Origin: Microcoleus sp. FACHB-672
Lineage (GTDB): Bacteria > Cyanobacteriota > Cyanobacteriia > Cyanobacteriales > Oscillatoriaceae
Reading direction: 5' to 3'
Assembly: GCF_014695725.1 (NCBI RefSeq)
Contig: NZ_JACJOU010000016.1
Location: 62,001-126,000 of the forward strand
Length of the DNA: 64,000 nucleotides
Of the stretch, positions 1,070 through 5,317 are shown piece after piece (position 1 is the stretch's first letter; each line of letters opens with the position of its first letter). The notes under the pieces are model-generated. The model ran no database searches and had not been told where the DNA came from. It worked only from the letters and a program-made list of their open reading frames with translations. The position numbers and the translations under genes are program-made.

Positions 1070-1642
1070 TTAAATTTTATTCACGAGCTGTTCTATCTGG
1101 GAAACCACCCGGTCTAATTCTTCAACTAAAGGCGTTGAGCCGGCTTTGCGGAATGCCTCTACTAAAGATCGATAATACCAAAGAGAGCCATCTTTTCCTC
1201 CTTTAAAGCGCTCCCAAAGTGATTCTCCCACGACGCGATAATCTTTAAGAATTGAGCCGGCATTGTATAGTTTATCAGCTGATGAGACAAGTCGCACCGA
1301 AGCCGAAGCTGTGGCAATGTGGGCAATATAAGCTTCTTTACGCTGCCGCCACGGGGGTTTGGGAGTCATGTCGCTGTCTGTGCAGCCGTCTACAATTTCT
1401 GTCACGTTATCTCCAAACCGGCGGCGAATTTCTTCCCGCGTCGCAGCACCCCCTTGATCTTCAATTGCATCATGAAGCAATGCGGCGATTGCTTCATCTT
1501 CATTCGCTCCATATTCAAGCGCGATACTTGCTACGCCTAATAAATGAGCAATGTAAGGAATACCACTACCCTTGCGAGTTTGGGTAGCGTGCAACTGGGT
1601 TGCAAAGGTTAAGGCTTCGGTAAATCGTTTTGAGAGTATCAT
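1070..1642 (-). CDS. HD-domain phosphohydrolase (RelA/SpoT-hydrolase-like)
   Basis: A 190-residue soluble protein with the metal-binding layout of HD phosphohydrolases. His33 (in PYIAHLLGV) and the His57-Asp58 pair in ALLHDAIED match the pattern of the (p)ppGpp hydrolase domain and of the small MESH1-like enzymes; a later Asp in DGCTDSD may complete the site. There is no synthetase or TGS/ACT domain, so if it acts on ppGpp it can only hydrolyse it. It stands alone on the minus strand, about 130 bp beyond the ABC ATPase start and separated from patX by a terminator. Hydrolysis of another nucleotide is equally possible; the HD assignment is firm and the substrate is inferred. Confidence 0.85.
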   Translation of the reverse strand: MILSKRFTEALTFATQLHATQTRKGSGIPYIAHLLGVASIALEYGANEDEAIAALLHDAIEDQGGAATREEIRRRFGDNVTEIVDGCTDSDMTPKPPWRQRKEAYIAHIATASASVRLVSSADKLYNAGSILKDYRVVGESLWERFKGGKDGSLWYYRSLVEAFRKAGSTPLVEELDRVVSQIEQLVNKI

Positions 1643-1844: not shown

Positions 1845-1908
1845 TAAAAAAAATACTCAGCACTGCTTTGACTTCCTTAGAGTTGCAGAAAATCAATAGA
1901 GTGCTGAG
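1845..1908 (-). terminator. Rho-independent terminator of the patX-like gene
   Basis: Read on the minus strand, CTCAGCACT (1900-1908) pairs with AGTGCTGAG (1856-1864) across a loop of about 35 nt, and the stem is followed at once by TATTTTTTTT. It lies about 95 nt past the patX-like stop codon, so that gene would be transcribed alone and not with the HD gene. The long loop makes it less canonical. Confidence 0.6.
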
Positions 1909-2001: not shown

Positions 2002-2178
2002 TTAAGTACAACGACCACTGCCGCGATGGGGCGACAGATCGGGTGCAGTTTGTACTTGAACCTTTCTGATCGAACTGGCTTGAGAAAAATTTTCTGAGAG
2101 ATTTTCACCCCCTTTAAATTGAGTCGCTAGCCCGATAGATAACAGGCTTGATAAGAAGATAGAGGTGTAGAGCCGCAT
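2002..2178 (-). CDS. patX: PatX-like RGSGR-containing small exported protein
   Basis: A 58-residue protein starting MRLYTSIFL, with a hydrophobic N-terminal segment (LSSLLSIGLA, residues 9-18) like a signal peptide, a polar middle, and HRGSGR five positions after DLSP at the C-terminus, followed only by Cys-Thr. RGSGR is the pentapeptide of PatS and HetN that binds HetR. An export signal plus a C-terminal HRGSGR is the hallmark of PatX, found in filamentous cyanobacteria that have hetR. The ATG at 2178 is preferred over an upstream TTG at 2205, because a likely -10 box (TATACA, 2209-2214 on the minus strand) would place the transcript start close to that TTG. The family assignment rests on motif and architecture. 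hetR is not in the window, so the role in patterning is inferred. Confidence 0.82.
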   Translation of the reverse strand: MRLYTSIFLSSLLSIGLATQFKGGENLSENFSQASSIRKVQVQTAPDLSPHRGSGRCT

Positions 2179-2208
2179 AAGCGATTTCCGTATCAGAGCT
2201 TCCAATTC

Positions 2209-2239
2209 TGTATACGGACTTTTTGCTATGTTCTCCGGG
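2209..2239 (-). promoter_or_regulatory. Candidate promoter of the patX-like gene
   Basis: On the minus strand TATACA (2209-2214) lies about 31 nt before the chosen ATG, a good -10 position. Nineteen bases further upstream is CCCGGA (2234-2239), one base from the TCCGGA element seen at the -35 position of some developmentally controlled promoters in filamentous cyanobacteria. The spacing is a little long, so the upstream element is only suggestive. Confidence 0.4.
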
Positions 2240-2880: not shown

Positions 2881-3060
2881 TTAGCTGACATTCGAGACAG
2901 AGAAGGCGACAAACATCAATCCACCAATAAGCGCGGTTGCTACAGCGCCTAAAACAAGATAGTTCCGCTGTTGAGCCTGGCTGGGGGCTTCAGCTTTATA
3001 AATTTTTGGCTCAATCGCGAAATTGTTTAGCCGTCCGCCTTCTTCGTTGATATATGGCAT
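2881..3060 (-). CDS. psb34: Psb34, photosystem II assembly-associated small membrane protein
   Basis: A 59-residue protein. The first half is polar with the conserved GGRLNNFAIEPK block (residues 8-19), followed by AEAPSQAQQRNY and one membrane helix (LVLGAVATALIGGLMFVAF, about residues 35-53). This is the pattern of Psb34, a small HLIP-like protein bound to photosystem II assembly intermediates; it lacks the chlorophyll-binding motif of true high-light-inducible proteins. It is expressed alone, with its own terminator downstream and an AT-rich promoter region upstream. Assignment is by the conserved N-terminal block, which I recognise from cyanobacterial homologues. Confidence 0.88.
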   Translation of the reverse strand: MPYINEEGGRLNNFAIEPKIYKAEAPSQAQQRNYLVLGAVATALIGGLMFVAFSVSNVS

Positions 3061-3316: not shown

Positions 3317-5317
3317 TCAATCGGCAATCGTACCCGTCTGGGGGGAACTCGCACTCGCACCGGCTTTAACCGGCATTCGTCCCGCCAGATAAGCCAAACG
3401 CCCAGCCTCGGCTGCCATTCCCATCGCCTTTGCCATCGCTGCCGGATGTTTCGCCATCGCAATTGCGGAATTAATTAACAGCGCATCCGCCCCCATTTCC
3501 ATTGCTTGCGCCGCCTCGGAAGGTGTTCCAATGCCGGCATCCACCACCACCGGCACCTTGGCATTCTCAATAATAATTTGAATATTTGCAGCGGTTGTAA
3601 TGCCCTGTCCCGAACCGATGGGCGAACCCAAGGGCATTACCGTCGCGCAACCGGCATCCTCCAACCGCTTTGCCAGCATCGGATCGGCATTAATATACGG
3701 CAGGACAGCAAACCCTTCCTTCACCAACTGTTCCGCCGCTTGCAACGTCCCAATCGGATCAGGCAGCAGATATTTCGAGTCCGGAATCACTTCTAACTTG
3801 ACAAAATTATTATCCTCTTGCCCCAAAAGTTTTGCCATTTCCCGTCCCAGACGCGCCACCCGAATGGCTTCTTCCGCCGTTTGACAGCCGGCAGTATTCG
3901 GCAGCATCCAGATTTTCGTCCAATCCAACGCCTCTGCTAATCCTTCATGCCCTGGTGCCTTGGTTTGCACGCGCCGCACCGCAACCGTTACAATCTGGCA
4001 ACCACTTGCTACGACACTTTGCTGCATCTGTTCAATGCTGCGATACTTGCCGGTGCCGGTCATTAAGCGAGAGTGAAAGGTTTTACCGGCAATGGTTAGG
4101 GCAGAATCCTGAACGGTTAGGGCAGAATTTGCTTGAATTGGGGTGGGATAAGTGAGCATGGAATTAGAATTCTTGGGGGAAGTTTGCAGTGAAGCGGTTG
4201 CCGGCTGGGGGTTAAAAAACCGTGCGGCGTGGAAATGCTTTAATAACGGATCAGATTTTTGATTCAGGATGAAATCTGCAATTAGCGCAGCCGTTGCCGG
4301 CGCTAATAAAATGCCATTGCGATAGTGCCCCGTCGCCAGGGTTAAATTTTCACATAAACTAGGGCCAAGAATCGGTAATTCATCCGGGGTTGCCGGCCTA
4401 TATCCCCACCAGAAATCCTCAATGGGATAATGTTGCAAAGCCGGGTATAAACGAATTGCTCGTTCTAACAATGTTTGAACACCGGCAGGCGTATTACCTG
4501 GAGTAAAGCCAACCTCTTCAGTGGTTGCACCTATCACCAGTCGGCCATCTTGACGCGGGACAATGTATATATCTTTGCCATACAAAACTCGCTGCAAATT
4601 TCCTGAATAATGACTTTGCCCATCAGGAGTTGCCGGCATCCGTAGTGACAACATTTGCCCTTTTTTTGGATACACCGGCACTGGCAGCAATTGATGAGAC
4701 CAAGCGCCGGTTGCTAAAACATAGTGCTGGGCGTGAAAATCGCCGCTATTAGTTCTGACGCTGCTGACTTGCCCGTGACGCTGAGCGATAAACTCAACCG
4801 TAACACCCTCGCGCACTTCGATTCCCAATGCTTCCGCCGTCGCCCACAGCGCCCGCGCCAAAGCGCGATTGTCTACTTGGCCATCTTCTGGAAACCACCA
4901 ACCGCCGGTTACGTCTGTCCCCAATCCGGGCTGGTGCACATTAATTGCAGTTTTGTCAAGCCATAAAGCTGGGGAAGGTGAGGGGGTGACGGGTTGAGGG
5001 GGAGAATTGCTGACATCCTCGTAAGCCGGTGCGAGAATCCCACAAGGCCAATAACCGACGGATAAGCCAGAGAGTTCTTCGAGTTTGCTTGTCCAGTCTG
5101 GATACAGATCCCGCGAACGCAAGCATATATCTAGCATGGGGCCGGCTGGGAGGGCTTCCGCTTGGGGTGCGATCATGCCGGCGGCGGCGTGGGTTGCGGC
5201 TTCGCTGAAGTTGCGGCAAAGAACGAGGGGTGATGCGCCTCGCAATTTGAGTTCGATGGCAATTGAAAGGCCGGTGATGCCACCGCCAATAATCAGAATT
5301 TCAGTAGATGGGATCAT
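3317..5317 (-). CDS. thiOG: Fused glycine oxidase ThiO - thiazole synthase ThiG
   Basis: A bifunctional thiamine-biosynthesis enzyme of 666 residues. The N-terminal part (about 1-370) is a FAD-dependent glycine oxidase with the dinucleotide fold [17 protein letters not shown] near residue 10 and DELPILGPS later; it makes dehydroglycine. After a Ser/Pro-rich linker, ThiG starts near residue 405 ([19 protein letters not shown]) and includes the Schiff-base Lys507 in [16 protein letters not shown] and the phosphate loop GSPIGSGQG. ThiG joins dehydroglycine, deoxyxylulose phosphate and the sulfur of ThiS thiocarboxylate into the thiazole ring. Such fusions are known in cyanobacteria. No thiS is adjacent and no TPP riboswitch was seen upstream. 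It is divergent from cimA. Confidence 0.95.

Follow-up and report, generated by a model that had tools for sequence, protein, structure and literature searches.

PatX was reportedly defined in a paper of 2018. In Nostoc, this protein is exported and cut with PatP, and its HRGTGR peptide binds HetR (KD 88 nM), blocking DNA binding (PMC12756182). The binding of the PatS signal to HetR requires Arg223 (PMC7476756). In Leptolyngbya BL0902, a non-heterocystous filamentous cyanobacterium, patX seemed to influence transcription for the most part independently of hetR (PMC11298460).

The window, i.e., the whole stretch of 64,000 nucleotides of Microcoleus sp. FACHB-672 analysed here, contains a short frame (2178–2002, minus strand) encoding the protein MRLYTSIFLSSLLSIGLATQFKGGENLSENFSQASSIRKVQVQTAPDLSPHRGSGRCT, followed by a stop codon. 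An earlier note made from the letters alone had taken its product for a PatX-type protein with a near-terminal HRGSGR, and this identification is borne out by RGSGR-bearing orthologues in the family and by the NCBIfam model NF047413.1 (heterocyst-inhibiting protein PatX, equivalog), which matches residues 1–56 with 40.7 bits (E=3.1e-10; cut-off 30 bits). A Pfam search of the protein returned no model. The hexapeptide HRGSGR occupies residues 51–56 of 58, within the C-terminus SPHRGSGRCT, and the N-terminal MR is followed by a hydrophobic, signal-like start as in all relatives, as judged from the translation. The features of the locus are as follows.

2002–2178, minus strand: patX coding sequence, 58 codons and stop (translation, NF047413.1 match, orthologues, conserved neighbours)
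2122–2178, minus strand: signal-like N-terminus MRLYTSIFLSSLLSIGLAT (read from the translation; hydrophobic start common to all PatX relatives)
2011–2028, minus strand: HRGSGR hexapeptide, presumed HetR-binding signal (translation; only synonymous differences within the genus)
2005–2010, minus strand: Cys-Thr, two-residue tail behind the motif (translation; Val or Ala for Thr in close relatives)
2187–2218, minus strand: inverted repeat TCCGTAT-a-CAGA, 9-nt loop, TCTG-ATACGGA, just before the start codon (fold, covariation; core GRAARCTCTGAYAC)
2234–2239, minus strand: CCCGGA, DIF1-like box of inferred role (upstream-region comparison; one mismatch to TCCGGA)
1846–1908, minus strand: terminator-like hairpin followed by eight T (inverted repeat, fold, conservation in the genus only)
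1070–1642, minus strand: downstream neighbour, HD_4 domain protein related to RelA/SpoT hydrolase domains (domain match; conserved neighbour in genera g1, g2 and g4)
2881–3060, minus strand: upstream neighbour, psb34 (ssl1498) (NF033486.1, 94.7 bits; conserved neighbour in four genera)

Upstream of ATG 2178 the frame stays open (84 codons), and a start at TTG 2205 would yield a protein of 67 amino acids. This alternative start has no support from the relatives, while ATG 2178 corresponds both to position 1 of the PatX model and to the start of the relatives. The frame is a real, conserved additional patX gene of an already known kind, and taken alone it is an ordinary PatX. The expectation that so tiny a gene is easily missed by annotation is plausible at this size, although a PatX model now exists at NCBI.

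The window PatX is kept at 94–97% protein identity in two further genomes of the genus and in one MAG, labelled Microcoleus vaginatus WJT46-NPBG5. Among the three genus genomes all differences in the HRGSGR codons are synonymous; over the whole gene 7 to 9 nucleotides differ per pair, mostly at third positions, and the last residue of the tail is free to change (T, V, or A). In the GTDB family, psb34 adjoins the patX orthologue in all four genera and the HD_4 gene lies on its other side in three of them. All family orthologues retain RGSGR, with a variable middle and a tail that reads LA, RC, or CEQ in the other genera. Homologues that keep the frame and lose the motif, which the earlier note had named as counter-evidence, were thus not found among the orthologues; the SGGR-bearing paralogues described below belong to a separate lineage. 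A search for relatives of this gene on viruses or plasmids found none.

About 90 nt past the patX stop lies the strong hairpin 1846–1908. The simplest reading makes it a terminator ending the patX unit; it is preferred to the other option, a small RNA, because the hairpin is restricted to the genus and a T run stands behind it. The interval between psb34 and patX carries a perfect-length 86-nt tandem duplication (2442–2613, copies 98% identical), with TACAGCTGCTTGGGATGAGTCGAAGAAGGCGGTTACAGGC in both copies. Further along, a 666-amino-acid frame (3317–5317, minus strand) resembles, by eye from its translation, a ThiO-ThiG fusion of thiamine synthesis.

One hetR gene is present in the genome (C10:48066–48512; PF03574, E=2.9e-75), so that the absence of hetR, the other possible objection named in the note, does not apply. 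Its product aligns over the full length with the structures of Anabaena HetR (4hri, 3qod), and the alignment shows that Arg223 and the LEELD stretch of the hood domain are kept. Glu253, Glu254, and Asp256 of HetR are important as well. A profile search of the 99.8%-complete genome for nifH gave no match over the cut-off; the best match (220 bits against a cut-off of 394) probably represents ChlL, a related enzyme of chlorophyll synthesis. The organism is therefore very probably non-diazotrophic and without heterocysts, a heterocyst role of the window PatX is unlikely, and the setting of nitrogen step-down and heterocyst formation in which the gene had been placed becomes doubtful.

Other RGSGR proteins, for which the note had suggested a search, are indeed encoded by the genome. 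A second patX, encoding a 60-amino-acid protein with the end HRGSGRVGG, is located on contig C10 about 0.8 kb from hetR and is the most likely counterpart of patX in the patX-hetR pair described for Leptolyngbya (PMC11298460). A third gene, on contig C17 (109295–109741, plus strand; L024 5296–5742), codes for a PatX of 148 amino acids with a signal-like start and three copies of RGSGR. Two adjacent degenerate patX-like genes are found on contig C22 near 105331 (plus strand; L059 1501–1665 and just downstream). They have kept the frame without RGSGR: the first ends in RPKSGGRRA, with SGGR replacing RGSGR, and the end of the second is more degraded. The SGGR form is conserved in two genera, which may indicate an altered signal and not just decay.

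The Cys-Thr tail had been regarded as unusual. This was ruled out by a survey of 122 distinct proteins that combine a signal-like start with RG(S/T)GR, collected by family, phylum, and order searches, a non-random sample with many Nostocaceae-like genomes: 91 of the 122 carry residues past the last motif and 31 end exactly with it, and in multi-copy proteins the motif is also internal. Residues behind the final Arg are plainly normal in PatX-type proteins, and the tails of the window type vary (CT, CV, CA, LA, RC, CEQ). Of 179 motif copies, 92 are preceded by His; Glu, Asn, Ser, and Ala are frequent in this place too. Peptides from either side of HRGTGR are seen in Nostoc with PatP (PMC12756182); by analogy, the Cys-Thr tail would be either removed or tolerated. 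What stands of the earlier interpretation is thus the PatX identity, and not the unusual tail or the nitrogen and heterocyst setting.

Some PatX precursors have several signal units. Six GTDB families yielded twenty distinct proteins in which RGSGR is present in 2 to 11 copies (loci L036, L039, L047, L128, L157, L167, L176, L179, L182, and others), and such proteins occur in each of the eight genomes from the window's own family; the same searches found none in families f6 and f7, the sources of most single-copy PatX. The copies lie 11 to 54 residues apart in an otherwise acidic chain (net charge -2 to -33). Decayed units such as RGSDR or FGNGR are also seen, as if signal units had been gained and lost within one putatively exported precursor. 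Scored alone against the PatX model, the multi-copy proteins reach 21–23 bits, under its cut-off, and automatic naming may therefore miss them. Word searches of the literature for several RGSGR copies per protein returned nothing relevant; their coverage excluded the 2018 paper that defined PatX, and novelty is not claimed. Yeast alpha-factor is a multi-copy peptide precursor. Like multi-copy PatX it has a signal sequence and, behind it, repeated units with one signal peptide each, an analogy in which no homology is claimed and in which the release of internal RGSGR is putative. Internal copies require either cutting on both sides or activity in place, which bears on PatX maturation generally.

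Upstream of the window gene, the right arm of the inverted repeat 2187–2218 contains the likely ribosome site, and the repeat folds at -12.3 kcal/mol. The 6.4-Mb genome contains its core GRAARCTCTGAYAC at only three sites, all of them shortly before a patX-like gene. The mean folding z-score of the stretch before the ATG is -1.6 for 82 patX genes outside the Nostocaceae-like set, against 0.0 within that set. In 38 dissimilar patX representatives the pairing of a gene's own arms averages -8.0 kcal/mol, compared with -6.3 kcal/mol for pairing with the arms of other genes (20,000 permutations, p ~5e-5, a value that is approximate because the representatives are related). Some patX genes lack the repeat. 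The transcription start would decide between two readings of the repeat, an RNA hairpin covering the ribosome site and a DNA operator covering the -10 region. The CCCGGA at -61, with its one mismatch, stands where Nostocaceae-like patX genes have TCCGGA, at about -63 before the ATG, a sequence known as the DIF1 box (PMC7377430). A sigma-70 promoter scan gave no more sites than shuffled sequences, and an Rfam search yielded just one weak, meaningless match under the gathering score. At loci L042 and L048, an incomplete further copy of the upstream element (e.g., GGTTGGAAGCTCTGACACC) lies up to about 80 nt past the patX stop with no obvious patX behind it.

Taken together, the window gene is probably a second, hetR-unlinked patX whose product is an exported and cut precursor, the peptide from its HRGSGR region blocking HetR in neighbouring cells. 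The short precursor would be exported by the Sec route and cut outside the cytoplasm to a peptide around HRGSGR, which would reach neighbouring cells and bind the hood domain of HetR, preventing its binding to DNA. The window gene would be one of several sources of a single signal, together with the hetR-linked patX and the three-copy PatX. Export, outside cutting, spread from cell to cell, and HetR inhibition are carried over from Nostoc PatX (PMC12756182, PMC7476756). With no heterocysts to space, the output would probably concern the choice of cells in the filament that die or stop; such control of cell death or fragmentation has been proposed by others (PMC12756182). This reading is drawn from the passing of the PatX model cut-off and the family-wide RGSGR orthologues with conserved neighbours, from the single hetR with Arg223 and LEELD and a second patX 0.8 kb away from it, and from the DIF1-like box at the expected place, whose mismatch is counted against it. 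The apparently hetR-independent effects of patX in Leptolyngbya BL0902 also count against it.

The same organism provides an argument for a different receptor. For the genes on which deletions of patX and hetR have opposite effects, the double patX-hetR deletion in Leptolyngbya BL0902 resembled the deletion of patX (PMC11298460), and the SGGR-motif paralogues of the family make receptors other than HetR conceivable. A gene that is PatX by descent, with an exported peptide acting mainly through another receptor, is nevertheless an unlikely explanation, given that the orthologues strictly keep RGSGR while tail and middle vary and that the peptide-binding residues of HetR are kept.

The several patX-like genes of the genome, two of them degenerate, might suggest that the window gene arose as a duplicate of the hetR-linked patX and is now decaying, with little of its function retained; conservation over four genera with neighbours, motif, and upstream repeat intact makes this quite improbable. 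An open frame and a motif that both arose by chance have next to no probability: the frame is indeed short, and genome-wide the motif's degenerate DNA pattern shows no enrichment (63 matches against 210 in the backwards control), but the orthologues already refute this reading, as do the match to a curated model above its cut-off, the conserved neighbours, and the synonymous changes in the motif.

A broader proposal is put forward tentatively, its chances lying a little short of even: non-heterocystous filamentous cyanobacteria may possess a multi-gene PatX set comprising single-copy precursors such as the window PatX, polyproteins that would release 2–11 RGSGR peptides from one exported chain, and SGGR paralogues. 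In many of these genes a covarying inverted repeat at the start would govern how the signal is transcribed or translated. If so, the dose of the HetR inhibitor would be set partly by the number of copies within a precursor. For the role of hetR and patX before heterocysts existed, a genome with one hetR, several patX genes including a multi-copy precursor, and no nifH found offers a clean test ground. The polyprotein PatX and the patX-specific leader repeat are concrete handles and the parts worth following.

Among the known systems, PatX of Nostoc PCC 7120 (HRGTGR; PMC7761841, PMC12756182) shares with the window protein its small size, signal-like start, a His-preceded RG(S/T)GR near the C-terminus, a DIF1-like box upstream, and a hetR in the genome. 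The window gene differs in not adjoining hetR, in its two-residue tail and RGSGR instead of RGTGR, and in having an inverted repeat before the start, several paralogues, and a genome in which no nifH was found. Like patX of the non-heterocystous, filamentous Leptolyngbya BL0902 (GFS31_32390, PMC11298460), it belongs to a cyanobacterium, presumably filamentous, that very probably makes no heterocysts. The Leptolyngbya gene, however, immediately precedes hetR, an arrangement to which the C10 copy comes close here, whereas the window copy is a separate locus with psb34 on one side and the HD_4 gene on the other. PatS has in common with the window PatX the RGSGR signal, which binds HetR in PatS and presumably does so here; it is very short, ends exactly with RGSGR, and is presumably processed by cutting inside the cytoplasm (PMC12756182). 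With 58 amino acids, a signal-like start, and a tail, the window protein does not match the PatS definition of a very short protein with an exact RGSGR end and no export signal. HetN also carries RGSGR, in its case as an internal and hence not C-terminal motif (PMC7761841), but is a larger protein than the 58-residue window PatX.
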